Positions 44,672 through 62,018 of a stretch of 64,000 nucleotides of DNA are shown here, in pieces; position 1 is the first letter of the stretch; every line of letters begins with the position of its first letter. The stretch is from Gammaproteobacteria bacterium (lineage in GTDB: Bacteria > Pseudomonadota > Gammaproteobacteria > Pseudomonadales > IMCC2047), in assembly GCA_021773395.1 (NCBI GenBank), contig JAJFKB010000005.1, positions 39,718 through 103,717 of the forward strand. Reading direction: 5' to 3'. Both the position numbers and the translations under genes were made by a program. Below the pieces are notes generated by a model. That model did no database searches. It was not told the origin of the DNA and saw only the letters and a list, made by a program, of their open reading frames with translations.

Positions 44672-46444
44672 CTATGCTGGCCGGTTTTTTATTCGATACG
44701 AAATATAGGCGCGTTTTACGCCGAGCATCCTGGCGGCCTCAGAAAGATTACCATTTGCCCTCTTTATGGCCTCAGTAATCAGGCCAAATTCGATATCATC
44801 AATAGGGATTTGTTCTTCAAGCACCGAAGCCAGCAGTTTTTCTTCCGGGATGGCTGCCTGTCTGTGTTTGATTGACCCGGTTGGATCAAGCTTCAGTAGC
44901 ATGGAATCGATTGCCGCTTCGCTGAGGAACAGGTGGTTGAGCTCGATTGGCTTATTGTCTTCCGCGAGAATAACGGCGCGTTCGATAAGATTTTCCAGTT
45001 CGCGAATGTTGCCGGGATAATCATGCAGATACAGTGCATCTACGGCGAGATTGGAAAACCCTGTGATTCTCTTTTGATGACGATTATTGAAAAGGCGAAG
45101 AAAATGATCCATTAGCAATGGAATATCCTCTCTTCGTTCTTTTAGCGATGGAATATTGATAGGGAAAACATTTAGGCGGAAAAGCAGGTCCTCTCGAAAT
45201 ATGCCCTCTTTAACGGCAGCGTGTAGATCCATATTAGTGGCGGCTATGATGCGCACGTCGACCTTGCGCGTTGAAGTGTCGCCGACGCGTTCGATTTCCC
45301 GCTCCTGAATGGCGCGTAATAATTTAATCTGCGCCGCCATGGAAAGCGTGCCCACTTCATCCAGGAATAAAGTGCCTGTGTGTGCGCGTTCGAATCGACC
45401 GGGCCTGGCTTCAGTAGCTCCAGTAAATGCACCTTTCTCCACACCAAACAGCTCGGACTCAATAAGATTCTCGGGTATTGCCGAACAGTTAAGTGCTATA
45501 AAGGGCTGGTCAGCACGATTGCTTATTTGGTGCAGTGCACGAGCGAAGCGGCCTTTTCCGACCCCGGTAGCGCCCAGTAATAACACCGTTGCTGAGGTGT
45601 CGGCCACCTTCTGCACAAGATGGCAAGTGGTGGTAAATCCGGGCGAAGTACCTACCATTGCTTCCAGAAGAGAAGATGCCTCCTGATCTTGCGGGGAAAG
45701 GCCTGATATAAGAGCAGCATCTCCGTTTATAGAGCGGTTCGGCGAGCGACTGATGAACATGTGCGGTTGCAGCGCGTTTCGCTCATTCTGAATTTCCTTA
45801 GCATCCCATTCATCGAGAGATTTTCCGACAATACGGCAATGCTTGTCTCCTGCAGCACAGCATTCTACCTCTTTATAGAGAATAGGGCGGCCCATAAAAG
45901 CGCTGGTATAACCAATGGCGTAGCCCAGCTGGATCCAGCAAACAGACTGATCTGATGGGCCAAATGCCTGAAGGTGATGTTTTGCGTCGAAGCTGTCGTG
46001 CCAGATAAATTCACCATAGTACTGCCCTGTTTCGGTGTCACCTTCTACGCGCACAGGTTGAGCGAAGAGCATGCCATGCAAAGAGTGAAGCTGGGGGCCA
46101 GCGAGGAAAGAGTCCAGTGTGGAACGGGTTCTTACCTTGCGGGCAATAACCGCATCTTTGGTTCCGGCTGAATAGCCCATTCGTGTCAGCACTCCTCGGG
46201 CTTCCTCTATGCCGAGCTTTCTGATGGTCTGTTCTCGTAAAAATGCGAGACTGGACATGTGAATCAAGGCAACCCGGTCGCTATCCAGCCAAATGCGACC
46301 CTCTTTCGGTGAGAATCTTAGTGAGTTAATTAGATCGTGAAAGGAGGCATGATTGTCGTCGGCTGAGCCCTCTTCCACTAAGGGCTGTAGCGTAAATCGC
46401 TGCGCGCCTAGAGACTCTAATGCAGGTTTTTCAGGTTTGCTCAT
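44672..46444 (-). CDS. V4R/sigma-54-dependent activator of the DmpR/XylR type (regulator 1)
   Basis: About 590 residues from the ATG at 46444 (AAGG upstream); a TTG at 46492 would add 16. An aromatic-sensing N domain (20-120, with [14 protein letters not shown] and [15 protein letters not shown]) is followed by a V4R domain (130-195, [20 protein letters not shown]). An AAA+ domain (285-450) has [34 protein letters not shown] and [15 protein letters not shown]-terminal HTH has [20 protein letters not shown]. Divergent from ppsA, so it most likely senses phenol and activates the sigma-54 promoter at 46707. Confidence 0.9.
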
Positions 46445-46525
46445 AGGTGCCTTGATCGTATGATTGAAAGATAAGTATCTATTTTTTATCAAATTTGCAC
46501 ATTACTTTAACTGATCCAAAATGAA

Positions 46526-46722: not shown

Positions 46723-47000
46723 ACATACACTGATAGCAATCGCGTGCGACGCAAAAAAAGGGGAGCGAAGCACCATTGTTAAAAAAATGGGTGAAATTTG
46801 ATGAAGTAAGGGCCCATTAGATTAATAAATGAAACAGTGTCACCAAATCAAATAAAACGTCGATCACATCGAATATGTGTAGCCAGAGTTAGTAATAGGG
46901 CAGGTGTATCAGTTTTTAGGTGGCTTAAATAATAAGGGCACAGAGACACGCAGAAAAATTGCCCACACTAAAATGCGAGAAAATGTCAGGAGGAACACCG

Positions 47001-48833
47001 ATGACAGGCCAGTATGCTAAACCGAAAGATATTGAAACGATACCCGGTACTGAAGGATGGGAGCGCATGTATCCGTACCAATATCAGTTTGTAACCGACG
47101 ATCCTGAGCGCCAGAAATATGAGGAAGAGTCATTTTGGTTCTATGATGGACTGCATTACCCGGAGCCGGTTTATCCCTTTGATATGATCTGGGATGAGGC
47201 CTGGTATTTGGCGCTCTCTCAGTTTAATACCCGTATTTTTTCGGTGCCGCCAGTATTTGGTGTGGATCACCGTATCATTAATGGCTATCCCTACATCTCA
47301 CCAGTTGCAGTCAAAGATCCTGCCGTAGTCGAGGAGCGCATCGGCCATTTCATGGAGCGTGCTGGCTACTATTATGAAAATTGGGATGAGTTGGAAGCCA
47401 AATGGGAAGGCAAGATGCGCGAAACGATCGACAAGTTGGAGAAGCTTGAGATTGCGCCGCTACCAGAATTGGAAGATATCCAGGTGGTGAAAGATGGTCT
47501 GGGCGAATCCAAAGGCTACCATTTGCTGAAGTCTTACGATCAGTTGATCGATCTGGGCATTCAATGCTGGCAGTACCACTTTGAATTCCTCAATCTGGGT
47601 TATGCCGCCTATGTGACCTTTCTGGATTTTTGCCAACGCCTGTTTCCAGATATTCCGGTGCAGCGAGTTACCCAGATGGTTGGGGGTATCGATGTCATCA
47701 TGTATCAGCCGGATGAAGAGCTGAAAAAACTTGCGCGTCTAGCACTGGAGTTGGGCGTACAGGCGACTCTTCGAGTCAGCACTGATTTTAGCGTTGTCGA
47801 AAAAGCTATGCAGGAAACCGCGCCCGGCAGAGAGTGGTTGATTGCCTTCGAGGAAGCGCGCCACCCCTGGTTTAACGTTTCAACGGGTACTGGCTGGTAT
47901 CACCATGACAAATCCTGGAACGATGACCTCAACGTTCCGCTGTCCTCTATCAGTATGTACGCCGATAAGGCGGAAAAGGGCGAATGCCTGGATCGTCCGA
48001 CCGCAGCGCTTCGAAAGGAGCGGGATGAAATTGTCACTGAATATCGAGCTTTGATAGCAACCGATCAGGATCGGGCGGCTTTTGATCAGCTATTGCAGAC
48101 GGCAAAAACAGTAATGCCCTACGTAGAAAATCACATGTTCTTTGTAGAGCATTGGTTCCATTCGGTGTTCTGGAACAAGGTGCGTGAAGTAGGCGTGATC
48201 ATGAAGGATCATGGCCTGATCAAAGATGTAGAAGATATCTGGTACCTCAAGCGTGGCGAAATTAAGGATGCGTTGTGGGATATGGTCACCGCTTGGGCCA
48301 CTGGCGTGAAGCCGCGTGGTGCCGCAACCTGGCCAAAGGAGATCGAGTGGCGCAAAGGGGTAATGGACAAGTTCCGTGAATGGCGACCAGAAGCTGCGGT
48401 CGGCACTGTGCCCGATGTCATTCAAGAACCGTTTACTGTCGTGCTTTGGGGTGTTACCAGCGAGTCGTTGCAGTCCTGGTCGGAAATTCAGGATATGGAT
48501 GACCTTGACAGTGTGACCTGTTTTAAAGGTTTTGCCGGCAGTCCCGGTATTGTTGAGGGTGTCGCCAGAGTCTGTCGTACGGTTGATGAAATTGCGGGGT
48601 TAAAAGAGGGAGAAATTCTCGTGTCTCCGACCACCTCGCCATCCTGGGCGCCTGTGTTCAGCAAAATTAAAGGTTGTGTTACCGATGTTGGTGGCGTCAT
48701 GAGCCATGCGGCGATTGTTTGTCGCGAATACGGCATGCCTGCGGTTGTTGGTACTGGGCTAGCGACCAAGATTGTTAAAAGCGGTCAGATGATTCGTATA
48801 AATGGTTCGACTGGCGAGATCAATATTATCTAA
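47001..48833 (+). CDS. ppsA: Phenylphosphate synthase subunit PpsA
   Basis: 610 residues from ATG 47001, which has the strong site AGGAGG 7 bp upstream. The protein resembles the central and swivelling parts of PEP synthase. The phospho-carrier motif DVGGVMSHAAIVCREYG lies near the C-terminus, with its His at residue 569 when counted from this start. From memory, His569 is the phosphorylated residue of the Thauera aromatica enzyme; the identical numbering supports start and orthology. Role: with PpsB it transfers the beta-phosphoryl of ATP to phenol, giving phenylphosphate. First gene after the sigma-54 promoter. Confidence 0.92.
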   Translation: MTGQYAKPKDIETIPGTEGWERMYPYQYQFVTDDPERQKYEEESFWFYDGLHYPEPVYPFDMIWDEAWYLALSQFNTRIFSVPPVFGVDHRIINGYPYISPVAVKDPAVVEERIGHFMERAGYYYENWDELEAKWEGKMRETIDKLEKLEIAPLPELEDIQVVKDGLGESKGYHLLKSYDQLIDLGIQCWQYHFEFLNLGYAAYVTFLDFCQRLFPDIPVQRVTQMVGGIDVIMYQPDEELKKLARLALELGVQATLRVSTDFSVVEKAMQETAPGREWLIAFEEARHPWFNVSTGTGWYHHDKSWNDDLNVPLSSISMYADKAEKGECLDRPTAALRKERDEIVTEYRALIATDQDRAAFDQLLQTAKTVMPYVENHMFFVEHWFHSVFWNKVREVGVIMKDHGLIKDVEDIWYLKRGEIKDALWDMVTAWATGVKPRGAATWPKEIEWRKGVMDKFREWRPEAAVGTVPDVIQEPFTVVLWGVTSESLQSWSEIQDMDDLDSVTCFKGFAGSPGIVEGVARVCRTVDEIAGLKEGEILVSPTTSPSWAPVFSKIKGCVTDVGGVMSHAAIVCREYGMPAVVGTGLATKIVKSGQMIRINGSTGEINII

Positions 48834-48842
48834 AAACTCTTG

Positions 48843-48869
48843 GCGCCGGCGAAGCAATATTGCCGGCGC
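48843..48869 (+). repeat. Strong hairpin between ppsA and ppsB
   Basis: Perfect 8-bp arms GCGCCGGC and GCCGGCGC with an 11-base loop, starting 9 bp after the ppsA stop and ending 33 bp before ppsB. No U-tract follows, so it is unlikely to stop transcription fully. It could set the ratio of the two subunits by protecting or processing the mRNA. Confidence 0.6.
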
Positions 48870-48902
48870 AGCGAAGTGCAGTGCAGTAGGAGGAAAGAAA
48901 GT

Positions 48903-49988
48903 ATGAATGTCGATAAGCCTTGGGTCAGCTGGTTTGATGACTGTAGAAGAGAGATGGTTGAGCAGGTGGGTGGCAAGTGTTCGTCTCTCGGTGAGCTAAT
49001 CAATGCGGGAATTCGAGTGCCGCCAGGTTTTGCCATTACGGTAGCAGGGTACGAGCACTTTATGGCACAAAATAAGGTCTTGGATGAGATTGATGTGATG
49101 CTCAAAGGCGTCGATCCACAAGATATTGCGACCTTGGAAGAAATCAGCCTTAAGATACGAAACAAGATTGAGCAGATGCCGATTGATACCGAGTTTGAGG
49201 ATCAGATCGCTGAGTTTTACCGCAAGCTATCGGTACGTTCCTGCATGCCAGCCGTGGCTGTTGCCATACGTTCCAGTGCAACAGCAGAGGATTTGCCTGG
49301 CGCCAGTTTCGCCGGTCAGCAGGACACCTTCCTTTGGGTGCGTGGCATCGATGATGTGTTAGCTCACGTCAGGCGTTGTATTTCCAGCCTGTTTACCGGT
49401 CGTGCCATCGCTTACCGAATTGATATGGGTTTCGATCATCGCCAGGTGGGTATCAGCGTAGGGATTCAGAAGATGGCCAACTCCTTTGCCGCAGGCGTGA
49501 TGTTTACCCTAAACCCAAGTAACGGCGATCGCTCTTCCATTGTCGTGGATTCCAATTTCGGTTTTGGGGAATCGGTGGTTTCCGGCGAGGTAACACCGGA
49601 TCAATTTCGCATTAACAAGGTTTCCATGGAAGTACTTAATCGCGTCATTTCGGACAAAGAGATTTGCTATACCGTCGATCCGAAAACCCAAGTTTCGATA
49701 AAGACCGAAGTGCCGGAAGAGCGCCGCAAGGTGCAATCGGTGACTGACAAAGAGCTGGTTGAGCTGGCGAAATTGGGCAAGCTCATCGAGCAGCACTATG
49801 GCTGCCCCATGGATATCGAGTGGGCGGTCGATAAGGACATGCCGGAGGGCGGTAATATTTTTATTTTACAGGCACGTCCTGAAACTGTCTGGAGTAATAA
49901 AGCAGCGGAAGTGGTTTCGACTGTGGAGGGTTCCTCGGCAATGGATCATATTTTAAGCAGCATGATGGCAGGTAAGAAGGTCAAGTGA
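48903..49988 (+). CDS. ppsB: Phenylphosphate synthase subunit PpsB (ATP-binding)
   Basis: 361 residues, start ATG 48903 with AGGAGG 10 bp upstream. It matches the N-terminal ATP-grasp part of PEP synthase: VGGKCSSLGELINAGIRVPPGFAIT at the start, VAIRSSATAEDLPGASFAG (121-139), and later SNGDRSSIVVDSNFGFGESVVSG and FILQARPETVW. It phosphorylates the carrier His of PpsA. The split of PEP-synthase domains over two proteins is the known design of phenylphosphate synthase. Confidence 0.92.
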   Translation: MNVDKPWVSWFDDCRREMVEQVGGKCSSLGELINAGIRVPPGFAITVAGYEHFMAQNKVLDEIDVMLKGVDPQDIATLEEISLKIRNKIEQMPIDTEFEDQIAEFYRKLSVRSCMPAVAVAIRSSATAEDLPGASFAGQQDTFLWVRGIDDVLAHVRRCISSLFTGRAIAYRIDMGFDHRQVGISVGIQKMANSFAAGVMFTLNPSNGDRSSIVVDSNFGFGESVVSGEVTPDQFRINKVSMEVLNRVISDKEICYTVDPKTQVSIKTEVPEERRKVQSVTDKELVELAKLGKLIEQHYGCPMDIEWAVDKDMPEGGNIFILQARPETVWSNKAAEVVSTVEGSSAMDHILSSMMAGKKVK

Positions 49989-50040: not shown

Positions 50041-50721
50041 ATGATTGTAAGAAATTGGATGAAACCTAACCCCATTACGGTCGTGAGCGACACGCTGGTG
50101 TCCGAAGCGAAACGTCTACTCGCAGAGAATAACCTGCATGTGTTGCCGGTGTTGGATCATAAAAAACTTCGAGGCTTGATTACCCGAGCAGATTGTTTAC
50201 GTGCCGCGCATTTTGTCAGCAATACGCAAAGCCCTGACGAGTTTGCATTCTTTACTGAACGCCTAAAAGTGAAAGACATAATGGTGCGAAACCCGGCTAC
50301 TATCGACGTAGACGACACCATGGAGCACTGCCTGGAGAAGGGTAAAAAATTGGGTGTGGCTCAGTTTCCGGTGATGGAAAAGGGCGAAGTGGTCGGCATT
50401 ATTTCGGCGAATGAAATCTTTGCGATGGCAGCCAATTTTCTGGGCGCATGGGAAAAACGCAGCGGTATTACCTTGGCACCTATTACGCTGGAGCCCGGTG
50501 TGATTGCAGCAATTTCAGAAATTGTTTCTGCCACCGGTGCCGATGTGCAGGCCATTTACCCCATAGGTAAGGCTGAACCGCCGGACTATAAAGTCAGTAG
50601 CGAGAAAAAGATCATAATCAGGTTTTTAGGTGAAGATCCTGACGTGGTGGCGCAGGCGCTTAAACAAGCCGGCTATAAGGTGGTAGAAACGGTAACTGGG
50701 GCAGCGGATCAGGCTGCTTAG
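50041..50721 (+). CDS. ppsC: Phenylphosphate synthase subunit PpsC (CBS-domain activator)
   Basis: 226 residues. Two CBS domains occur (about 1-60, MKPNPITVVSDTLVSEAKRLL, and 75-135, IMVRNPATIDVDDTMEHCL), followed by an ACT-like region (145-215, GVIAAISEIVSATGADVQAI). In T. aromatica the third protein stimulates synthase activity without being catalytic. It is preceded by GAGAGAG at ATG 50041, 52 bp after ppsB. Confidence 0.9.
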   Translation: MIVRNWMKPNPITVVSDTLVSEAKRLLAENNLHVLPVLDHKKLRGLITRADCLRAAHFVSNTQSPDEFAFFTERLKVKDIMVRNPATIDVDDTMEHCLEKGKKLGVAQFPVMEKGEVVGIISANEIFAMAANFLGAWEKRSGITLAPITLEPGVIAAISEIVSATGADVQAIYPIGKAEPPDYKVSSEKKIIIRFLGEDPDVVAQALKQAGYKVVETVTGAADQAA

Positions 50722-50789: not shown

Positions 50790-52205
50790 ATGGATTTACG
50801 AGATTTTATCAACCGATGCGAGGAAGCCGGCGAACTTAAACGCATAACGGCAGAAGTAGATTGGAATTTAGAACTTTCGCATATTTCCAAATTGACCGAA
50901 GAAAGAAAAGGCCCAGCACTATTATTTGAAAATATCAAAGGTTATGACTCGCCAGTTTTTACTGGGGCTTTCGCGACGGAAAGTCGTTTGGCCATGTCGA
51001 TGGTAATGAATCCAGGCAACTCGCTCTGTGATTCGGCTAAGGAGTGGATGGAAAAAACGATTGATGAGCTCATCCCCTCGAAGGAAGTGTCCGAAGGGCC
51101 AATTTTAGAAAATATAGTGAGCGGTGACGATGTTGATCTGAACATCTTCCCGGTGCCGCATTTCTTCCCGCAAGATGGCGGGCGATATATTGGTACTGCG
51201 ACTTTCCTGGTGATCAAAGATCCTGAGACCGGTAAAGTTAACCTGGGCACTTACCGCATGCAAATGCTCGACGGAAAGCGCTGTGGTGTGCAAATTCTGC
51301 CCGGTAAGCGTGGCATGCGTATTCTTGAAAAATATAGGAAACTGGGTCAAAAGATGCCTGCTGCTGCGGTAATCGGTTGCGATCCATTGATGATGATGGC
51401 GGGTGCGTTGCAACATGAAGGTGCACAAAACCAATACGACATTATTGGCTCGGTTCGTGGCGCACCGTCAGAATATATGCTGGCACCTTTGACCGGATTG
51501 CCGATTCCAGCCGCCGCTGAAATTGTTCTGGAAGGAGAGATTGATCCTAATAACTTCCAGCCGGAAGGCCCATTCGGAGAGTACACCGGTTACTACACAG
51601 ACGAGCTGTACAAGGAAATTAAAAAGCCCTGCCTGGAAGTGAAACAGATTTTACACCGTGATAAACCGATCCTTTGGGCTACCTCTGTCGGTCGTCCGGT
51701 CACAGATGTGCATATGCTCATCTCATTTACCCGAACTGCGATGCTGTGGAGCGATTTAGCAAAGATGAGCATCCCTGGCATCCAATCGGTGAACGTTATG
51801 CCGGAATCTGCAGGCCGGTTCTGGGCTGTTGTCTCAGTAAAAACCCAGTATCCGGGTCACTCCTCTCAAGTGGGTAATGCAGTGATCGCGACCACTACTG
51901 GAAGCTACGGTATTAAGGGTGTGATCGTAGTGGATGAAGATATCGATGCGGATGATATTCAGCGCGTATTCTGGGCACTGGCCTGTCGTTACGATCCGGA
52001 GCGTGGCACTGAGATGATCAAGCGTGGCCGTGCTACGCCGCTCGATCCGGCGCTGGATCCAAACCAGAGCAAACTGATTACTTCACGTATTATTCTCGAT
52101 GCCACTATTCCTTACGAGTGGGATGAGAAGCCAGTGCCGATTTCTCTCGATGAGGAAACCCTGGCAAAAGTGAAATCGCGTTGGAGCGAGTACGGAATCG
52201 ACTAG
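50790..52205 (+). CDS. ppcB: Phenylphosphate carboxylase subunit, UbiD family (PpcB-like)
   Basis: 471 residues, close to the length I recall for the beta subunit of the T. aromatica enzyme; the alpha/beta naming here rests on length and order. It has the prenyl-FMN and substrate residues of UbiD enzymes: Arg in NLGTYRMQ, and the Glu pair in PEGPFGEYTGYY (E259, E264). The metal region FPVPHFFPQDGGRYIGTA is present. Reaction: carboxylation of phenylphosphate to 4-hydroxybenzoate with release of phosphate. It lies 68 bp after ppsC. Confidence 0.85.
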   Translation: MDLRDFINRCEEAGELKRITAEVDWNLELSHISKLTEERKGPALLFENIKGYDSPVFTGAFATESRLAMSMVMNPGNSLCDSAKEWMEKTIDELIPSKEVSEGPILENIVSGDDVDLNIFPVPHFFPQDGGRYIGTATFLVIKDPETGKVNLGTYRMQMLDGKRCGVQILPGKRGMRILEKYRKLGQKMPAAAVIGCDPLMMMAGALQHEGAQNQYDIIGSVRGAPSEYMLAPLTGLPIPAAAEIVLEGEIDPNNFQPEGPFGEYTGYYTDELYKEIKKPCLEVKQILHRDKPILWATSVGRPVTDVHMLISFTRTAMLWSDLAKMSIPGIQSVNVMPESAGRFWAVVSVKTQYPGHSSQVGNAVIATTTGSYGIKGVIVVDEDIDADDIQRVFWALACRYDPERGTEMIKRGRATPLDPALDPNQSKLITSRIILDATIPYEWDEKPVPISLDEETLAKVKSRWSEYGID

Positions 52206-52285: not shown

Positions 52286-52795
52286 ATGGGAAAGGCAGAA
52301 GATATAAAACTGGTCATTCTTGATGTTGATGGTGTGATGAGTGATGGCCGCATCGTGATTGATGATAACGGCGTGCAGTCGCGCAACTTCGATATCAAAG
52401 ATGGCCTGGGTGTGGTGGCGTTACAGATGTTGGGTGTTGAGGTGGCGATCATCACTTCCAAACGTTCCGGCGCTGTAAGACATCGAGCTGAAGAATTGAA
52501 GATTAAACGTTTCTATGAAGGCATCAGGAAAAAAACCGAAGCCTACGCTGAGATTATCGAAGATATGGGAATCACCGATGATGAAGTCTGTTATGTCGGT
52601 GATGATCTGGTGGATCTGAGCATGATGAAACGCGTCGGACTGCCGGTTGCGGTGGCTGATGCGGTGCCTGATATTTTAGAACATGCCGCTTATGTCACGA
52701 GCGCACGAGGTGGTTATGGTGCGGTGCGTGAAGTAGCGGAAATGATTCTTAAAGCTCAGGGCAAATGGGAAAAGCTATTAACGAAGATTAATTAA
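52286..52795 (+). CDS. ppcD: Phenylphosphate carboxylase subunit PpcD (HAD phosphatase-like)
   Basis: 169 residues. HAD motif I is ILDVDGVMSDGR (Asp13, Asp15), motif II and III parts are ITSKRSGAVRHRAEEL and YVGDDLVDLSMMKRVGLP. It looks like a KdsC-type phosphatase and has the length of the delta subunit (18 kDa) of phenylphosphate carboxylase, thought to remove phosphate from the bound substrate. It sits between the two UbiD-type subunit genes, as expected for the ppc set. Confidence 0.88.
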   Translation: MGKAEDIKLVILDVDGVMSDGRIVIDDNGVQSRNFDIKDGLGVVALQMLGVEVAIITSKRSGAVRHRAEELKIKRFYEGIRKKTEAYAEIIEDMGITDDEVCYVGDDLVDLSMMKRVGLPVAVADAVPDILEHAAYVTSARGGYGAVREVAEMILKAQGKWEKLLTKIN

Positions 52796-52828: not shown

Positions 52829-54313
52829 ATGAGTGCAATTCTTAAAGATGAGGGCGGAGCAGCAATCGATGCCCCCAAAAGTAACCGTGAGTACATTGAG
52901 CGGTTGATGGAAACAGGTGACTGTGTCCGTATCGAGCAAGAGGTGGATTGGGATAATGAAGCCGGCGCAATCGTGCGTCGTGTCTGTGAGTTAGCTGGAC
53001 CAGCGCCTCTGATGGAAAACATCAAAGATTATCCCGGCTTTAAGTACTTCGGTGCAGCTCTGTCCACCTATCGACGGGTTGCCATTTCCCTGGGCATGGA
53101 TCCGGATACCACGCTGCCGGAAATTGGAAAAGAGTACTTGAAACGAACCAACGCTGAGCCGATAGCTCCTGTTGAAATTGATCGTGCGGCAGCACCCTGT
53201 AAAGAAAACATCCTGATGGGTGATGATGTGGATCTGTGCAAGTTGCCGGTTCCATTGGTTCACGACGGTGATGGTGGGCGTTATATCGGTACCTGGCACG
53301 CGGTTATTACCAAACATCCTATTCGGGGTGACTATAACTGGGGTATGTATCGTCAGATGATGTACGATTCCCGAACCATGTGTGGTGCGGTTTTCCCCTT
53401 CTCTGACCTGGGTAAAACGCTAAGCGAATATTATACGCCACGTGGTGAAACCATGCCTTTCGCCACAGCTATTGGTTTATCGCCACTGGCTGCCATGGCC
53501 GCTTGCGCACCATCGCCGATTCCTGAGTCAGAGTTAACAGGTATGCTGGCTGGTGCTCCAGTCGAGCTGGTTAAGTGTGAAACCAATGATCTGCTTGTTC
53601 CCGCTAATGCAGAAATCATTCTGGAAGGGGAAATTATCCCTGACGTGATGGTGGAAGAAGGACCATTTGGTGAATACACCGGTTATCGTACCTCGCCGCG
53701 TATGCCGCGTGTGACATTCCGCGTTAACTGTATCACTTACCGTAATGCTGCGACTCTGACTATTTCCAACATGGGTGTGCCCATGGATGAAGGGCAGCTA
53801 TTACGTTCCTTCTCGCTGGGGCTGGAGTTAGACAAACTATTGCGTAGTCAGGGTATTCCTATTACTGGCGTATACATGCATCCGCGCTCCACGCACCACA
53901 TGATGATTGTGGGCGTTAAGGTCACTTATGCTGGTGTAGCTCAGCAGATTGCGCAATTGGCATTCGGCAGTAAGTTGGGGCCCTGGTTCCATATGGTGAT
54001 GGTGGTGGATGAGACCATCGATATCTATAACTGGGATGAGGTGTATCACGCCTTCTGTACCCGCTGTAACCCGGAACGCGACATCCATATCTATAAAAAC
54101 ACGACAGGAACGGCACTTTACCCCCACGCCAGTCCGCATGAGCGTAAGCATTCCATTGGCTCCAAGGTTTCCTTTGACTGCACCTGGCCGGTGGACTGGG
54201 ACAAGATCAACGAAGTGCCGACAGTGGTGTCGTTCAAGAATGTATACACCCAGGAAATCCAGGATAAGGTCACTAGTAACTGGGAAGCCTACGGCTTTGC
54301 GCCAGTTAAATAA
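52829..54313 (+). CDS. ppcA: Phenylphosphate carboxylase subunit, UbiD family (PpcA-like)
   Basis: 494 residues with a short N-terminal extension. Catalytic UbiD residues are present: Arg in YNWGMYRQMMY, and the Glu pair in EEGPFGEYTGYR (E277, E282). KLPVPLVHDGDGGRYIGTWH and MHPRSTHHMMIVGVKVTYAG are family blocks. Length and order suggest the alpha subunit. Both UbiD-type subunits keep the R-E-E residues, so neither is obviously a structural partner only. Confidence 0.85.
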   Translation: MSAILKDEGGAAIDAPKSNREYIERLMETGDCVRIEQEVDWDNEAGAIVRRVCELAGPAPLMENIKDYPGFKYFGAALSTYRRVAISLGMDPDTTLPEIGKEYLKRTNAEPIAPVEIDRAAAPCKENILMGDDVDLCKLPVPLVHDGDGGRYIGTWHAVITKHPIRGDYNWGMYRQMMYDSRTMCGAVFPFSDLGKTLSEYYTPRGETMPFATAIGLSPLAAMAACAPSPIPESELTGMLAGAPVELVKCETNDLLVPANAEIILEGEIIPDVMVEEGPFGEYTGYRTSPRMPRVTFRVNCITYRNAATLTISNMGVPMDEGQLLRSFSLGLELDKLLRSQGIPITGVYMHPRSTHHMMIVGVKVTYAGVAQQIAQLAFGSKLGPWFHMVMVVDETIDIYNWDEVYHAFCTRCNPERDIHIYKNTTGTALYPHASPHERKHSIGSKVSFDCTWPVDWDKINEVPTVVSFKNVYTQEIQDKVTSNWEAYGFAPVK

Positions 54314-54335: not shown

Positions 54336-54587
54336 ATGAATAAGTGGGAAGTTTTTGTTGACGATCTATCAGAGCTGTCTGAGGGGGAAGGTTTGGAATT
54401 AACCATCAGAACCTTGAATGACGGTATGCATAAGTATACCTACAAGCGTGTTACAGCAGAGGTATCCAGTTCTTTGGAGCAATATGCGGATAGCTTGCAA
54501 GTGCGTTTTGGTCGCGGTCAACTCAGCGATAAAAAATATTCAATTAACATACTGGGGGAAATTGATCGTTTCCCGAATTACCAGTAA
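54336..54587 (+). CDS. ppcC: Phenylphosphate carboxylase subunit PpcC (small)
   Basis: 83 residues, acidic, start ATG 54336 with AGAGGA 8 bp upstream. MNKWEVFVDDLSELSEGEGLELTIRTL reads as a small beta-rich protein matching the size (10 kDa) of the gamma subunit. It follows ppcA by 22 bp. No motif alone proves the call; position and length carry it. Confidence 0.8.
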   Translation: MNKWEVFVDDLSELSEGEGLELTIRTLNDGMHKYTYKRVTAEVSSSLEQYADSLQVRFGRGQLSDKKYSINILGEIDRFPNYQ

Positions 54588-54641: not shown

Positions 54642-55988
54642 ATGGCATATCAAGACCTACGTGAATTTCTAGCATCGATGGAGGGCGATATACTCCACAT
54701 TGCCACCGAATTTGATCCTAAATTTGAAATGGCCGCGTTACTACACGAGACGCAGTCAGACGGTCGTGTTGTGCTATTTGACAATGTCAAAGGACACCCT
54801 GGTGTCAAGGTGATGGGTAATTTACTGTCGAGTAGAGCACGAATTGCCCGTGCGCTTGGAACAACAGATAAAAAGCTAAATGAAACCTATTTGAACTGTA
54901 AAAAGCATGCTCTGGAGCCAGTAATCTGTGCGGGTCCAGCGCCGGTTAAAGAGGTCATTCATCGTGCCCCGGCTGATGTGTCGGCATTACTGCCAATACT
55001 CACTTATCATGAAAAAGATGCGGCCCCTTTTATCACCTGCGGTCTGGTGATGGCCAAAGATCCGGAAACTGGGCGCAGAGCAATGGGTATCCATCGCATG
55101 ATGTTCAAGGGCGGGAACCGGTTTGGCATATTTCTAGCGAATCCACCGCTGTCATCGTATTTCCAGCAAGCAGAAGAGGAAGGTAGAGCGCTGGAAATTG
55201 CGGTTGCGCTAGGGGTCGATCCCGCGACGTTGCTAGCTGCGGTGGTGAAAGTTGGTTCTACTGGGCCGGATAAGCTAGAAGTTGCTGGTGGCCTAAGGGG
55301 TTTGCCGTTGGAGCTAACGCCAGCGGAGACGGTGGATATTGATGTGTTAGCGCGTGCAGAAATTATTATTGAAGGGCATGTCTTGCCGGGGGTGCGCGAG
55401 CAGGAAGGACCCTTTGGTGAGAGTACGGGCTACTATTTTTCCAATGTCAGTCCAGTGGTGGAAGTGACAGCTATTACCCACCGTAAAGATTTCATCTATG
55501 CGGCTTTATGTCCCTGGACGGTGGACGTGGATAATCTGTTGTCCCTTGCTTCGGGCACGGAGTTATTAGGGCAGTTGCAAAACCAGATTCACGGAGTAGT
55601 GGATTTGGAGCTGATTACCGGTACTTGCGGATTTGCCGCAGTGATAGCGGTAAAGGATTGTCAGCCCACTGATGTGCGGCGTTTGATCCAGCTAGTGTTG
55701 AGTTTGGACTTACGATTAAAGATTGTCACGGTGGTTGATGCTGGAGTTGATATCCGCAATCCGCGTGAAGTGTCCTGGGCGTTAGCGACGCGCTATCAGC
55801 CTGATCGTGACACAGTTTTATTGGACAAGATGGCGGGTTATGTCATTGATCCGTCTGCAGTTGAATCCGGAACTGGTTCAAAAATTGGTTTTGATGCAAC
55901 CCGCGGGCCTGGTGAGCAATTTGATGCTGTCAGCATTCCCGCAGCTGCACAGGCCAAGGCCAAATCAGTTTTGGCGGATAGTTTTTGA
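54642..55988 (+). CDS. Third UbiD-family (de)carboxylase
   Basis: 448 residues, start ATG 54642. It keeps the UbiD catalytic set: Arg in MGIHRMMFKGGNRFG and the Glu pair in REQEGPFGESTGYY (E255, E260). It differs from PpcA and PpcB in length and in having GIHR instead of GxYR. It may carboxylate or decarboxylate a different substrate, such as a hydroxybenzoate or a cresol-type phosphoester, or store prenyl-FMN. Its stop is 2 bp before the RibK-like gene, so the two seem coupled. Confidence 0.88.
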   Translation: MAYQDLREFLASMEGDILHIATEFDPKFEMAALLHETQSDGRVVLFDNVKGHPGVKVMGNLLSSRARIARALGTTDKKLNETYLNCKKHALEPVICAGPAPVKEVIHRAPADVSALLPILTYHEKDAAPFITCGLVMAKDPETGRRAMGIHRMMFKGGNRFGIFLANPPLSSYFQQAEEEGRALEIAVALGVDPATLLAAVVKVGSTGPDKLEVAGGLRGLPLELTPAETVDIDVLARAEIIIEGHVLPGVREQEGPFGESTGYYFSNVSPVVEVTAITHRKDFIYAALCPWTVDVDNLLSLASGTELLGQLQNQIHGVVDLELITGTCGFAAVIAVKDCQPTDVRRLIQLVLSLDLRLKIVTVVDAGVDIRNPREVSWALATRYQPDRDTVLLDKMAGYVIDPSAVESGTGSKIGFDATRGPGEQFDAVSIPAAAQAKAKSVLADSF

Positions 55989-55990
55989 GT

Positions 55991-56449
55991 ATGTCTCAAT
56001 TTAGCAAAGTACCTGATTCAGGGCAGCATAATTCAACCCAAAATCAAATGGTTGAACTCGACGGACGTGTTTGTTCCGGTCTGGGTGAGGGCAGTAACTT
56101 TATTCAGATGAATTGGGTGCTAAAGCAGTTTTTGGATAAATTCGCCATGAAGCCCTTTGTAGGGACCTTTAATCTGGAAATGGCGGGAGCAAAGTGGCAG
56201 CGAGTGTTAGCTCGGTTGCGCGCGGCAGAAGGAATCATTATCGAGCCACCGGAGGGATTTTGCAGTGCTAAATGCTTTCGCGTTGTGCTGCAACGGCTGG
56301 AACACAAGCAAGTAGAGGCAGTAGTTATTTTTCCAGCGGTGAGCAATTACCCTGAACATAAATTTGAAATAGTGGCAGCAGTACCAATCAGGCAAGTTTT
56401 GCAGCTAAAGGATGGGGATCAGGTAAAGGTGCAACTCTATCTCAATTGA
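55991..56449 (+). CDS. ribK: DUF120 protein, CTP-dependent riboflavin kinase-like (RibK)
   Basis: 152 residues from ATG 55991, 2 bp after the UbiD gene. The core follows the archaeal riboflavin kinase family: LDGRVCSGLGEGSNF (nucleotide-binding glycine loop), MKPFVGTFNLEM (the GTxNL riboflavin/Mg site), GFCSAKCFRVVL and the closing RQVLQLKDGDQVKVQL. Family knowledge: RibK makes FMN from riboflavin using CTP rather than ATP and is typical of archaea; bacteria normally use bifunctional RibF. In this place it would raise FMN for UbiX. Function inferred from motifs and context. Confidence 0.8.
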   Translation: MSQFSKVPDSGQHNSTQNQMVELDGRVCSGLGEGSNFIQMNWVLKQFLDKFAMKPFVGTFNLEMAGAKWQRVLARLRAAEGIIIEPPEGFCSAKCFRVVLQRLEHKQVEAVVIFPAVSNYPEHKFEIVAAVPIRQVLQLKDGDQVKVQLYLN

Positions 56450-56534: not shown

Positions 56535-57008
56535 ATGAGTAGTATTACCACAACATCACCACACACAATTACACCCGAACTGCCAAAGCAACTGCTTTCA
56601 TATGCCCGTGCGGGTGCGCTCGGTATTGTTATCAGCGTTGGCGAGGACAAATATCCAACAGATGCGTTCGCCTGGGTTGTTGCGCTAGACGATAAACGAG
56701 TGCGGTTCTCGGTGGATCATAACAGTAAAACTCTCGGGAATTTGGATCGAGATGGCTTGGCTGCAGTGCAAATAATTGGTCCAGACAACCTCGTATTTCT
56801 AATTAAAGGGGTTTGCCGTTCAGTAAAAACCAGGTTGGAGTCTGTGCCGATGGGGATTGGGTTATGGGAAATGGACGTAATCGGTGCCAGAGATCAATCC
56901 TGGCCTGGCGCAGCGCCATTGCCACTTGCTGTTCAGTGGTCGGGCGATGAGCGCGAATCAATGGTGAAAACAGAACAGGCTGTTTTTGAAGAGATGCGTA
57001 ACGCCTAA
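56535..57008 (+). CDS. FMN-binding split-barrel protein (PNPOx-like)
   Basis: 157 residues, ATG 56535 preceded by GGAGGAG. A pyridoxamine-phosphate-oxidase-like split barrel is suggested by ALGIVISVGEDKYPTDAFAWVVAL, RVRFSVDHNSKTLGNLDRDG and LVFLIKGVCRSVKTRLESVP. The family binds FMN, F420 or haem. Within this cluster it may handle FMN or prenyl-FMN or reduce an intermediate; no direct evidence. It lies 85 bp after the RibK-like gene. Confidence 0.65.
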   Translation: MSSITTTSPHTITPELPKQLLSYARAGALGIVISVGEDKYPTDAFAWVVALDDKRVRFSVDHNSKTLGNLDRDGLAAVQIIGPDNLVFLIKGVCRSVKTRLESVPMGIGLWEMDVIGARDQSWPGAAPLPLAVQWSGDERESMVKTEQAVFEEMRNA

Positions 57009-57055: not shown

Positions 57056-58360
57056 ATGCCGTATTTTGATGAGAAAATTGAAACGTTGCCGCGAGACCAG
57101 CTTGCACAGTTGCAGCTTGAAAAATTGCGGGCCATGATGAAAGAGATGTGGGGAAAAAATATGTTTTATACCCACAAATGGGAAGCTGCAGGCGTGACAC
57201 CAGACGATATAAAATCGTTGGATGATATTGCCAAGTTGCCCATTACAACCAAGGGTGAACTGGTTAAAGACCAGGCAGATCATGCGCCCTTTGGCACAAA
57301 TTTAACCTACCCGATAGATAAATACGTTCGTTTTCACCAGACTTCAGGGACGACAGGGAAACCTTTAAAAGTATTGGATACGGATGAAAGTTGGGATTGG
57401 TGGGGTGATTGCTGGGCCTATGTATTGGCCGGTGCTGGCGTAACAGAGGACGATCGGGTATTTCTGGCCTTTGCTTTCGGTCCGTTCGTAGGCTTTTGGG
57501 CCGCAGTTGAAGGTGCTCGCAAGTTAGGTGCAATTATGATTCCTGGTGGTGGTCGAGATTCTGTTCAGCGCCTAGAGTTGATGCGTGAAATGGGGGCTAC
57601 CTCTTTAGCCTGTACGCCCACCTATGCGATGAGACTGGCTGAAGTAGCACGTGAAACCGGCTTCGATATGTCTCAAATTCCCATGAAGTCGACCATTCAT
57701 GCGGGAGAACCGGGTGCCAATATCCCAGCTACCAAAAAGCGTATTGAGGATGCTTGGTCAGCCAAGTGCTTTGATCACGCGGGTGCGTCTGAAGTAGGGG
57801 CGCACTCATTTGAGTGTGAAGTGCAGCCGGGTGGTACGCACCTCATCGAAAGCGAATATATTGCAGAGGTTCTCGACCCGGAAACCTTGCAACCGGTAGC
57901 GCCAGGAGAAAAGGGAGAGCTGGTAATTACCAACCTTGGCCGCGTAGGGTTCCCCGTTATTCGCTATCGCACAGGAGATGTCGTGCGCGCGACCACTGAA
58001 ACGTGCCAGTGCGGACGAACCTCAATGCGTTTTGAGGGGGGTGTGATCGGGCGAGCAGATGATATGGTAACGGTACGCGGTGTTAACGTATTCCCGGGTG
58101 CCGTTGAGAATATCATCCGTCAGTTTAACGAAGTCGATGAGTTCCGTATTACTGTCTCTACCGTTAGGCATATGGATGAAATGGAAATCGAATTTGAACT
58201 GGTAGAAGGAACGAATGAAGAGATTTTGGGTGCGATCAATGAAAAACTCTATGCAATGCTGGGTTTTCGTCCGAAACTCAAGACGGTTCCGCGTGATGCG
58301 CTGCCTCGTTTTGATATGAAAGCAAAGCGTTTTCATGTAAAGAAAGAAGTTGCCGCCTAG
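57056..58360 (+). CDS. PaaK-family aryl-CoA ligase
   Basis: 434 residues, the normal length of phenylacetate-CoA ligases. AMP-forming motifs are HQTSGTTGKPLKV, HAGEPGANIPATKK, DHAGASEVGAHSF and FPVIRYRTGDVV, with CQCGRTSMRFEGGVIGRADDM before a C-terminal hinge domain. In the pathway context the likely substrate is 4-hydroxybenzoate, giving its CoA thioester for later dearomatisation, but another aromatic acid is possible. 4-Hydroxybenzoyl-CoA reductase is not in the window. Confidence 0.82.
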   Translation: MPYFDEKIETLPRDQLAQLQLEKLRAMMKEMWGKNMFYTHKWEAAGVTPDDIKSLDDIAKLPITTKGELVKDQADHAPFGTNLTYPIDKYVRFHQTSGTTGKPLKVLDTDESWDWWGDCWAYVLAGAGVTEDDRVFLAFAFGPFVGFWAAVEGARKLGAIMIPGGGRDSVQRLELMREMGATSLACTPTYAMRLAEVARETGFDMSQIPMKSTIHAGEPGANIPATKKRIEDAWSAKCFDHAGASEVGAHSFECEVQPGGTHLIESEYIAEVLDPETLQPVAPGEKGELVITNLGRVGFPVIRYRTGDVVRATTETCQCGRTSMRFEGGVIGRADDMVTVRGVNVFPGAVENIIRQFNEVDEFRITVSTVRHMDEMEIEFELVEGTNEEILGAINEKLYAMLGFRPKLKTVPRDALPRFDMKAKRFHVKKEVAA

Positions 58361-58720: not shown

Positions 58721-59326
58721 ATGGGTTTGCCACTTGTTGTTGCAATTACTGGCGCTACTGGTGTGATTTACGGTGTTGAGTTAATGAGAGTGCTCAAGGA
58801 ATTGAACGTTCCTACCCATCTGGTGCTTAGTGAATCTGCGGTCCGTAATATAAATATAGAAACTGAGTATGCCGTCGATGAGATCAAAGATATGGCGGAA
58901 GAGGTGTACAACAATAAAAATATAGGTGCCTCTATTGCAAGTGGATCTTTTCAAACCCGCGGAATGATAGTCGCACCCTGCACCATTAAGACGCTTTCAG
59001 GGGTCGCCAATTCTTTCAATGATAATTTGATCGTCAGGGCGTCTGATGTGACATTGAAAGAAAAACGCCCTTTGATATTAATGGTTCGTGAAACTCCTCT
59101 GCATAAGGGGCACCTGGAATTAATGTCGAGGGTGGCCGATATTGGTGCGACGCTGTTGCCTCCAATGCCCTCTTTCTATCACGGCCCAAAAACCATCATG
59201 GATATTGTGCACCAGAGTGTGGGTAAGGCGTTAGATCAGGTGGGCATTGAGCATAATCTGTTCAGGCGCTGGACTTCTGACTGTGGCAAAGATCCTTCAA
59301 TTCGTTTGGCAAAGGACGAGGGATAG
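58721..59326 (+). CDS. ubiX: Flavin prenyltransferase UbiX
   Basis: 201 residues. The flavodoxin-like fold has VVAITGATGVIYGVELMRVL, SIASGSFQTRGMIVAPCTIKTLSGVANSFNDNLIVRASDVTLKEKRPLILMVRETPLH (read in parts), and the C-terminal FYHGPKTIMDIV. The family joins dimethylallyl-P to FMN, making the prenyl-FMN cofactor of UbiD enzymes. Three UbiD proteins are encoded 2-8 kb upstream, so it serves this pathway. folE2 follows 38 bp later. Confidence 0.94.
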   Translation: MGLPLVVAITGATGVIYGVELMRVLKELNVPTHLVLSESAVRNINIETEYAVDEIKDMAEEVYNNKNIGASIASGSFQTRGMIVAPCTIKTLSGVANSFNDNLIVRASDVTLKEKRPLILMVRETPLHKGHLELMSRVADIGATLLPPMPSFYHGPKTIMDIVHQSVGKALDQVGIEHNLFRRWTSDCGKDPSIRLAKDEG

Positions 59327-60215: not shown

Positions 60216-62018
60216 CTATTCTGTCCCATGTTTTTTCAAGCGGTAGGCCATTTGTGGTCTGGATAGCCCCACAAAATCGGCGGCTTTTGTCATGTTATTA
60301 TTGGCCTTACCCAGCGCGTTTTTCAGCAGACGGTGTTCAATTTGTTTGAATGGGGTTTTCTTGGAGAGCATCATGTCCAGTAACTCAGAGCACATGGCTT
60401 CAGTGCTGTCCTGGCCACTATGTTCGGTAGCGTGGTTACAGTGATCCCGCGAGGAGGCTGCGGAATTGATCAGTCCCTCTGTGCCAAACAGGTGGCATAG
60501 ATCAATGGCTTGATGGTCATCGGCAAGGATCACCGTCCGCTCTACCAGGTTTTCCAGTTCCCTAATGTTACCCGGATAGTTATAATGATAAAGCGCTTCT
60601 GTCGCCACATCAGTAAATCCAGGGATATTTCGCTCATAGCGCTCGTTATAACGTTTTAGGAAATGAGCCATCAACAAGGGGATGTCGTCTCTGCGTTCGC
60701 GCAATGCAGGTATTTCAAGCGGAAACACATTTAGCCTGAACAGCAGATCTTCCCTGAATCGGCCGGCTTTAACGGCATCCTCCAGATTTTCGTTGGTCGC
60801 GGCGATAATCCGCACATCAACTTTACGCATGAAGGTATCACCGACACGTTCTATTTCTTTTTCCTGGACGGCGCGCAGAAGTTTGGTTTGTGCCGACTTA
60901 GTCAGGTTTCCGACTTCATCAAGAAAAAGTGTACCGCCGTGGGCCCGTTCAAATCGACCTGGCCGAGACTGTGTGGCCCCGGTAAAAGCGCCTTTGCTAA
61001 CTCCAAACAGTTCAGCTTCAATTAAATCATCTGGTATAGCGGCACAATTGACGGCAATAAAAGGTTGCTCGGCACACTGGCTGAATTGGTGCAGTGTCTT
61101 AGCGATCATCTCTTTGCCGACGCCCGTTTCACCCAGTAGCAGAACCGGTACAGAGGTACCAGCAACCTTCTTAATCATACTACATACATCATTCAGCTTT
61201 GGAGATTGGCCGATGAGGTCTCCGAGTATATTGGGTTCGTTTCGATCCCTTTCGAAGACGTATTGTTTGGCTTGAAAGTGAGTTTTGCGCTTGGTGGGTG
61301 CGTATTCACCTTTGAGGGTGCCGGGAAGGTGCGTTAACTCAAGTTTAATCTCATCTTCAAACCACATTTCCAGCAGCTTGCCCACCATCCGGCATTTATG
61401 GCTTCCCGTGGCACTGCATTCTACCTCTTTGTATATGACGGGGCGCTGAAGTAGCGTGCTCGCATAGCCGCTGGCGTAGGCAACCTCGTTCCAGCAAACC
61501 GGGCTGTTAGCCATACCGTCTTCAACCACACGGGTATCAACTTCAAAGTCGCCTGAGAACAACGTTTCATTATAAAAATGGTTGGATGCCAGGTTTATTT
61601 CCTGGTGCAACGTGCGCATTGATACTAACCCTCTAATCGCCCGAAGTTGCGGGCCGACCAAAAATATCTCTTCCAGGGACGCATTGGGTAATAATTTTTG
61701 CGCTAATATGGCTTCTCGTGCGCCGGATTCATATCCTAATTGTGCGAGAATTGCACCTGCTTCCTGATGCCCCAGTTTCTTATTTAATTCCCAATGCAAT
61801 AAGGATAGACTTGCCGGGCGGATCAGTACCACCGGGTGTGTGTCAAACCAAATACGGCCCTCACTTGGGGAAAATCTTAAGTGCTTAATGAGGTCAATGT
61901 AATCAGTAGAAGAACTGGTTCCGTCTTCGATCGAAGGTGCAAACTGCACGCGTTCAGAAGAATCGTAGTTTGATTTTAGTGATAATTCCTTGTTCACATC
62001 CTCTGATCCGTTCGCCAT
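60216..62018 (-). CDS. V4R/sigma-54-dependent activator of the DmpR/XylR type (regulator 2)
   Basis: 600 residues. Layout as in regulator 1: N-terminal sensor (45-150, RFSPSEGRIWFDTHPVVLIRPASLSLL), V4R-type (160-220, KEVECSATGSHKCRMVGKLLE), AAA+ (270-440, [47 protein letters not shown]), and an HTH (NMTKAADFVGLSRPQMAYRL). Whether it responds to the same ligand as regulator 1 is unknown; the V4R pockets differ. It closes the cluster on the right, convergent with folE2. Confidence 0.9.
   Translation of the reverse strand: MANGSEDVNKELSLKSNYDSSERVQFAPSIEDGTSSSTDYIDLIKHLRFSPSEGRIWFDTHPVVLIRPASLSLLHWELNKKLGHQEAGAILAQLGYESGAREAILAQKLLPNASLEEIFLVGPQLRAIRGLVSMRTLHQEINLASNHFYNETLFSGDFEVDTRVVEDGMANSPVCWNEVAYASGYASTLLQRPVIYKEVECSATGSHKCRMVGKLLEMWFEDEIKLELTHLPGTLKGEYAPTKRKTHFQAKQYVFERDRNEPNILGDLIGQSPKLNDVCSMIKKVAGTSVPVLLLGETGVGKEMIAKTLHQFSQCAEQPFIAVNCAAIPDDLIEAELFGVSKGAFTGATQSRPGRFERAHGGTLFLDEVGNLTKSAQTKLLRAVQEKEIERVGDTFMRKVDVRIIAATNENLEDAVKAGRFREDLLFRLNVFPLEIPALRERRDDIPLLMAHFLKRYNERYERNIPGFTDVATEALYHYNYPGNIRELENLVERTVILADDHQAIDLCHLFGTEGLINSAASSRDHCNHATEHSGQDSTEAMCSELLDMMLSKKTPFKQIEHRLLKNALGKANNNMTKAADFVGLSRPQMAYRLKKHGTE

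Follow-up and report, generated by a model that had tools for sequence, protein, structure and literature searches.

Positions 55991..56449 on the forward strand of the window, by which is meant the whole stretch of 64,000 nucleotides analysed, encode a 152-residue RibK-like riboflavin kinase (PF01982; ATG at 55991, stop at 56449). The gene represents a known family in a new operon role and lies within a cluster for the anaerobic use of phenol. The best explanation of this arrangement, which we consider probable, is that a Mg-dependent, stand-alone kinase of the RibK family makes FMN for the synthesis of prenylated FMN alongside the phenol operon. The family, the conserved presumed Mg-binding and acidic residues, the operon place, the co-occurrence with phenol genes and the presence of a separate RibF are read from the sequences, and from them we infer the kinase activity, the phosphate donor, the regulation together with the operon and the destination of the FMN. 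UbiD enzymes need prenylated FMN. In the proposed course of events, phenol would switch on the operon, as the flanking activator genes suggest, and RibK would convert riboflavin into FMN, stopping short of FAD, because a kinase without an FAD synthetase is expected to yield FMN only. UbiX would then prenylate the reduced FMN, probably with DMAPP, and the resulting prenylated FMN would be used by the UbiD-family subunits of phenylphosphate carboxylase.

The earlier note on this DNA had assigned the gene to the archaeal-type RibK (DUF120) family, described a 152-residue product with the motifs SGLGEG, GTFNLEM and LKDGDQVKV, and proposed a profile search. The open reading frame is found at its place with all three motifs, and the PF01982 profile (CTP-dependent riboflavin kinase, DUF120) matches its product with 100.1 bits (E 1.1e-28) over profile positions 1-120 of 121. 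Such a score, set against the gathering score of 25, is not due to chance. PF01982 is the sole Pfam match at E 0.1, and the RibF-type flavokinase domain PF01687 gives no match in the protein. The closest PDB match by sequence is 3cta (E 2.9e-10), followed by 2p3m (MJ0056; E 2.1e-8), and the solved relatives also include the archaeal riboflavin kinases 2vbs-2vbv; a cradle-loop barrel fold is predicted for the window protein. The equivalog cut-offs are missed, for NCBIfam ribK_Meth with 64.8 vs 168 bits and for PRK14165 with 92 vs 279 bits. An alternative in-frame start, the TTG at 55985, would extend the product to 154 residues.

The surrounding genes form an anaerobic phenol (pps-ppc) cluster. 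It starts on the forward strand with the gene of a phenylphosphate synthase A-like protein with a PEP-utilising mobile domain (46959..48833), which has a homologue in the annotated cluster of Azoarcus sp. KH32C and which is named PpsA in keeping with the literature. On the same strand follow the genes of a phenylphosphate synthase B-like protein (PPDK_N; 48840..49988), a TTG-started frame whose true start may be internal, and of a CBS-domain protein resembling phenylphosphate synthase C (50041..50721). The phenylphosphate carboxylase is represented by its beta subunit PpcB (50790..52205, +; TIGR02724, 821.3 bits, cut-off 469), the HAD phosphatase or delta subunit PpcD (52286..52795, +), whose position matches that of the annotated ppcD of KH32C, the alpha subunit PpcA (52829..54313, +; TIGR02723, 975.1 bits, cut-off 565) and the gamma subunit PpcC (54336..54587, +; PF09662, 128 bits, cut-off 25). 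The pps genes and ppcA, B, C and D, by which an anaerobic phenol operon is recognised, are thus all present in one cluster. The gene of a third UbiD-family protein (54642..55988, +) ends 2 bp before the RibK ATG, exactly as had been claimed. The surroundings, described in the earlier note as a UbiD operon, are more exactly named a phenylphosphate synthase/carboxylase cluster.

Downstream of RibK on the forward strand stand the genes of a PPOX-like protein (56535..57008), a PaaK-like aromatic CoA ligase (57056..58360) and the flavin prenyltransferase UbiX (58721..59326; TIGR00421, 236.8 bits, cut-off 108.9). The earlier note had correctly placed ubiX downstream in the cluster, and the order in the window is UbiD, RibK, PPOX, PaaK, UbiX. 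The PPOX-like assignment is weak (NF005232 at E 2.7e-12, below the cut-off, and no Pfam match at E 0.001), and proteins to which tblastn gave the label PPOX in other clusters match PF01243; members of this family usually bind FMN. A FolE2-type GTP cyclohydrolase gene (PF02649; 59365..60177, +) starts 38 bases after ubiX and is not labelled in any of the 49 RibK loci described below (tblastn, E 1e-6); a part for it in flavin supply was set aside, FolE2 being an enzyme of the pterin route.

Two genes of XylR_N/V4R sigma-54 activators flank the cluster, both on the reverse strand (44672..46492 and 60216..62018). A sigma-54 activator, PheR, controls the pps-ppc cluster of Aromatoleum aromaticum EbN1 (PMC10715001). 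A search for sigma-54 promoters in the window gave 49 matches with at most two mismatches vs 41 expected, and 13 shuffles reached at least that many, which provides no evidence of such promoters. No FMN riboswitch is found in the window at Rfam gathering scores. The only elements that reach them are two group II intron pieces (RF02001, RF01998) at 32564-32738 and 32795-32902, just before a 459-residue open reading frame at 32929.

The kinase is an addition to the ordinary flavin metabolism of its host. The own genome holds one PF01982 gene and one PF01687 gene, the latter encoding an ordinary FAD_syn-Flavokinase (bifunctional RibF), so that the window RibK is an extra kinase. RibF also makes FAD, as its two domains take riboflavin through to FAD. 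PF01687 is likewise present in 44 of the 47 genomes with relatives of the window RibK, and the possibility that RibK substitutes for an absent RibF is rejected on these grounds.

These relatives come from species genomes scanned with a three-sequence alignment. The scan gave 49 RibK loci in 47 genomes (L045 and L059 share the genomes of L037 and L054), mostly betaproteobacterial (Aromatoleum, Azoarcus, Sulfuritalea, further Rhodocyclales and others), the remaining few belonging to Bacillota, Deltaproteobacteria and Acidobacteria. The PpcC family PF09662 occurs in 41 of the 47 genomes; the scan is biased to phenol clusters because its patterns were taken from cluster members. A less biased count covers 297 genomes of a single Rhodocyclales family (that of G702, the Aromatoleum evansii genome with locus L013), among which PF09662 is found in 34 and PF01982 in 38. 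PF01982 is present in 33 of the 34 genomes with PF09662 vs 5 of the 263 without it (Fisher p 2.3e-37, a descriptive value which, like the one for the Bacillota below, overstates independence because the counted genomes are related). In the sole PpcC genome without RibK (G1012), PpcC lies 44 bases from a contig end and the downstream side is missing. For 33 of the 35 PF09662 hits over the cut-off, which leave out one row below it (G718:C20), a PF01982 hit lies on the same strand of the same contig at a distance of 224-2301 bp; the other two hits are at contig ends. In four of the five genomes with RibK only, the protein is of the RibK-HAD kind and the stretch analysed around its gene contains neither pps nor ppc genes, which counts against the best explanation. 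The fifth (G724) has a 4-kb contig (L035) on which RibK is accompanied by genes of UbiD, UbiX, Nudix, PPOX and PaaK. The genome of Aromatoleum buckelii (G728; L039) has three PF01982 and two PF09662 hits.

The neighbours of RibK in the 49 loci were labelled by tblastn, the queries being proteins of the window and of KH32C and two others, and an upstream neighbour was counted on the same strand within 400 bp. The nearest labelled upstream gene is UbiX in 39 loci and the nearest labelled downstream gene is Nudix in 32; PPOX-like genes are labelled in 28. The ten loci without UbiX directly upstream are L030 and L037 (contig starts), L039, where another RibK copy does follow UbiX, L052-L054 and L056-L059. 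By tblastn, no UbiX label is found in the stretches of L052, L054, L056, L057 and L059, and the order in L053 and L058 (Bacillota) is HAD, RibK, UbiD. An overlap of 4 or 7 bases between the ubiX stop and the RibK start, with one possible start each, is seen in L014, L018, L032, L034 and L038, further examples being L040, L041, L044, L049 and L060. Locus L002, of the same class as the window and another family, contains UbiD, RibK, Nudix and a PPOX-like gene. The window itself speaks in part against the best explanation: its ubiX is two genes beyond RibK, it has no Nudix gene beside RibK, and tblastn with two type 2 isomerase queries finds no type 2 isomerase in it. The same two queries find none in the betaproteobacterial loci. 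A single transcript with ubiD, ubiX and a gene resembling a NUDIX hydrolase is described in PMC5852087.

The linkage is wider than the earlier note stated and extends to a second phylum. Among 97 genomes of a Bacillota class (that of G746), PF01982 is found in 16 and PF09662 in 13, and PF01982 is present in 12 of the 13 genomes with PF09662 vs 4 of the 84 without it (Fisher p 3e-11). PF09662 occurs alone in G1025 and PF01982 alone in G746, G1078, G1079 and G1086; in G1086 pps-like genes nevertheless adjoin RibK, and UbiX is nearby in G1078 and G1079. UbiD adjoins RibK in 6 of the 16 short loci. In 14 of the 16 the PF01982 frame has 364-421 residues, and the fusion of RibK to a HAD domain is seen by Pfam for L121 and by tblastn alone for the other long frames. 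Fifteen longer stretches (L109-L123) represent all PF01982 genomes except G746, and they contain pps/ppc genes in 10, UbiD in 5, UbiX in 3 and a type 2 isopentenyl-diphosphate (IPP) isomerase in 10. This isomerase is encoded upstream of RibK-HAD (for example at L109:10466-11545, reverse strand) in every one of the 10 stretches that extend 2.9 kb or more beyond RibK on that side; in the other five the upstream sequence is shorter than 1.8 kb. One of the isomerases matches TIGR02151 with 348.8 bits (cut-off 281.3), a second one matches PF01070, and the remainder are labelled by tblastn. The sixteenth locus, L058 of G746, has 3.2 kb upstream with no isomerase and contains the PAC, HAD, RibK and UbiD genes. 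IPP isomerase makes DMAPP and RibK would make FMN, so that with both genes near each other in Bacillota, both substrates of UbiX would have phenol-linked genes.

Other genes recur in these loci. A protein of 187 residues encoded after RibK-HAD (L109:8612-9175, reverse strand), with no Pfam match at E 0.001 and no NCBIfam match at E 1e-5, has matches in 13 of the 14 other stretches L110-L123, the exception being L118, which is cut short by a contig end. A PF21758 protein (bacterial proteasome-assembling-chaperone-like) is encoded at L058:2159-2569 on the forward strand and is found by tblastn in 12 of the 15 stretches L109-L123, its gene recurring upstream of isomerase, HAD or RibK genes. Fusions of HAD and RibK exist in both domain orders and in several phyla, some of them away from pps/ppc genes: L003:832-1881 and L005:646-1896, in which the HAD part was read off the translation and not by profile, L056:10019-11062, L057:9284-10399 and L124:9053-10177. 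An MFS transporter gene adjoins HAD-RibK in L124 and L126.

The prenyl donor of UbiX bears on the presence of the isomerase. UbiX enzymes take FMNH2 with DMAP or DMAPP, according to PMC6541611. The place of residue 181 of PaUbiX was located by its distance of 12 residues from the Tyr regarded as Y169, and it holds Gln in all 72 UbiX rows listed (some genes in two loci) and also in the DMAPP-specific Aspergillus niger enzyme. One of three Bacillota UbiX has Gln there by the same rule, and the other two have His, read by eye. A Gln at this place fits the use of DMAPP together with an isomerase. A role of the Nudix protein as the maker of DMAP from DMAPP for UbiX was dropped, because the UbiX rows have Gln as in the DMAPP-specific enzyme. 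The favoured, putative role of the Nudix protein is the conversion of FAD into FMN; none of its more specific matches (Zn-ribbon, NAD(+) diphosphatase) reaches a cut-off.

The same gene neighbourhoods can be read in another way, in which the kinase supplies FMN as such to the carboxylase subunits or to other flavoproteins of the phenol route, the PPOX-like protein included, and the link to prenylated FMN is incidental. A two-subunit UbiD-like carboxylase of D. anilini was active in vitro with FMN, as reported in PMC7500099, so that the supplied FMN need not become prenylated FMN. The PPOX-like genes of 28 loci offer further possible users, as does the Bacillota type 2 IPP isomerase, itself an FMN-dependent enzyme. 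We nevertheless regard this reading as unlikely, because UbiX as the nearest gene upstream in 39 of the 49 loci and a DMAPP-making isomerase in Bacillota both point to the UbiX reaction. The supply of FMN for prenylated FMN is the preferred reading, and the line from riboflavin through FMN to prenylated FMN that the earlier note had suggested is, as a predicted route, strongly supported by gene linkage in two phyla, including a DMAPP-making enzyme near the kinase gene in Bacillota. We also lean, with less assurance, towards a broader form of it, in which phenol degraders of two phyla would carry a prenylated-FMN module beside the enzyme that uses the cofactor. Such a module would include RibK, the isomerase (in Bacillota), HAD or Nudix proteins tuning the flavin pool, UbiX and UbiD, with a changed pocket in the bacterial RibK, the phosphate donor of which may differ from CTP.

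The active site was compared across 52 aligned domains, of which 42 are bacterial and stand-alone, 6 are fused to HAD and 4 are archaeal. T59, N61, P115 and E126 are identical in all 52 domains, the archaeal ones included, and position 134 is R or K throughout. The Thr and Asn of the GTxNL motif are presumably the Mg ligands in MJ0056; these presumed ligands (T59, N61) and the acidic E126 are unchanged in the bacterial clade, which makes kinase chemistry plausible for it. Two mostly basic positions of the archaeal proteins are changed: after GxGEG the four archaeal sequences have R/R/Q/K and 38 of the 42 bacterial stand-alone ones have A or S, and at position 117 the archaeal sequences have K/R/R/R and the 42 bacterial ones, without exception, V, I, M or L. 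CTP use therefore cannot be assumed, and CTP is a likely, not an assured, phosphate donor; the two positions are not established determinants of CTP use, and their change does not exclude the proteins from the PF01982 family. Every one of the 42 bacterial stand-alone sequences has W42, C91, Y120, P121 and K124; among the four archaeal ones only Ta1064 shares one of these residues, Y120.

These changes would suit a PF01982 fold turned to another substrate, for example a different donor and a modified flavin, with dephosphorylated prenylated flavin salvaged to prenylated FMN. The residues W42, C91, P121 and K124, invariant in the 42 bacterial and not in the archaeal sequences, the two altered basic positions and the retention of the gene despite RibF are consistent with such a change. 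It appears improbable to us, since the bacterial clade keeps the acidic residue as well as the presumed Mg ligands, and every characterised member of PF01982 phosphorylates, to our knowledge, riboflavin.

The family is rare and patchy around the window. With the own genome counted in each case, PF01982 occurs in 8 of the 369 genomes that represent the class (in 7 of them over the cut-off), in 2 of 349 genomes of the phylum and in 1 of 4 of the own family, and the sole other genome of the genus (83% complete) is without it. No relative was confirmed among viral contigs scanned with P0001, and a scan of plasmids gave three records, of which the one bacterial record is the Azoarcus KH32C megaplasmid. 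In a tree of the 52 domains, 37 stand-alone Pseudomonadota sequences form one group (support 97/94) and the four archaeal sequences another (support 98/95); its branches are long and its root is a midpoint root, so that the order between groups and the direction of transfer are not readable from it. That the gene is a passenger of little function, moving with the phenol cluster by horizontal transfer, agrees with this patchy distribution and with the DDE transposase gene (PF01609, DUF772; 62223-63227) that adjoins the second activator gene where the cluster ends, but is highly improbable given the retention of RibK in 33 of 34 and 12 of 13 PF09662 genomes of two phyla, in differing gene orders and with a domain fusion, and the conservation of its presumed catalytic residues.

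In the open-licence literature, no description was found of a bacterial RibK tied to UbiD/UbiX or to a phenol cluster; the founding Thauera papers lie outside it and may contain such a remark. Likewise, no joint treatment of riboflavin kinase with phenylphosphate carboxylase or with prenylated FMN, no functional reading of the DUF120 gene in phenol clusters and no measured activity of the bacterial RibK were found there. The word 'riboflavin' is absent from the main text of the papers on anaerobic aromatic degradation PMC13101534, PMC7500099, PMC5852087, PMC10715001, PMC13416013, PMC4148979, PMC6114531 and PMC1924859. If the preferred reading is true, parts of a natural supply line for prenylated FMN are named (a kinase making FMN and not FAD, and the IPP isomerase of Bacillota), helper genes become available for the biotechnology of UbiD enzymes, and the DUF120 or unnamed open reading frames of phenol clusters receive a function. 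It also raises the question of a standing bacterial role for CTP-type riboflavin kinases, a group that is usually described as archaeal. We know of no enzyme described as a special FMN supplier for prenylated FMN, and of no earlier operon dedicated to the supply of this cofactor.

Several known systems resemble parts of the one described here. The archaeal RibK (MJ0056; PDB 2p3m, 2vbs-2vbv) shares with the window protein the whole-domain PF01982 match, the SGLGEG and GTxNL motifs and the conserved P115, E126 and R134. In contrast, the window RibK is bacterial, operon-borne, found beside a housekeeping RibF and below the ribK_Meth cut-off, and the bacterial proteins differ in the residue after GxGEG, in the K/R at 117 and in their invariant W42, C91, P121 and K124. 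RbkR (Ta1064, PDB 3cta), an HTH-riboflavin kinase, is the top PDB sequence match, whereas Pfam matches no N-terminal HTH domain in the 152-residue window protein; HVO_0326 is another RbkR, according to PMC8305020. The bacterial RibF is expected to perform the same reaction, from riboflavin to FMN, but belongs to another family. The plant AtFMN/FHy resembles RibK-HAD in combining a HAD phosphatase and a riboflavin kinase in one protein; its kinase half is of the RibF type, whereas here it is of the RibK type. The pps-ppc cluster of Thauera aromatica, Aromatoleum and Azoarcus has the pps and ppc genes, a third UbiD, UbiX and a CoA ligase; in the window, by contrast, ubiX has another place and RibK is not followed by a Nudix gene. 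In T. aromatica, ORF8 is UbiX-like and ORF14 of the CoA-ligase type, and ORFs 9-11 and 13 are named with no function in the part of PMC6114531 concerned. The plasmid of Azoarcus sp. KH32C carries pps, ppc, UbiD, UbiX and CoA-ligase genes as in the window, and on it the UbiX, DUF120 and NUDIX genes are consecutive, the last 4 bases of ubiX being shared with the start of the DUF120 gene.
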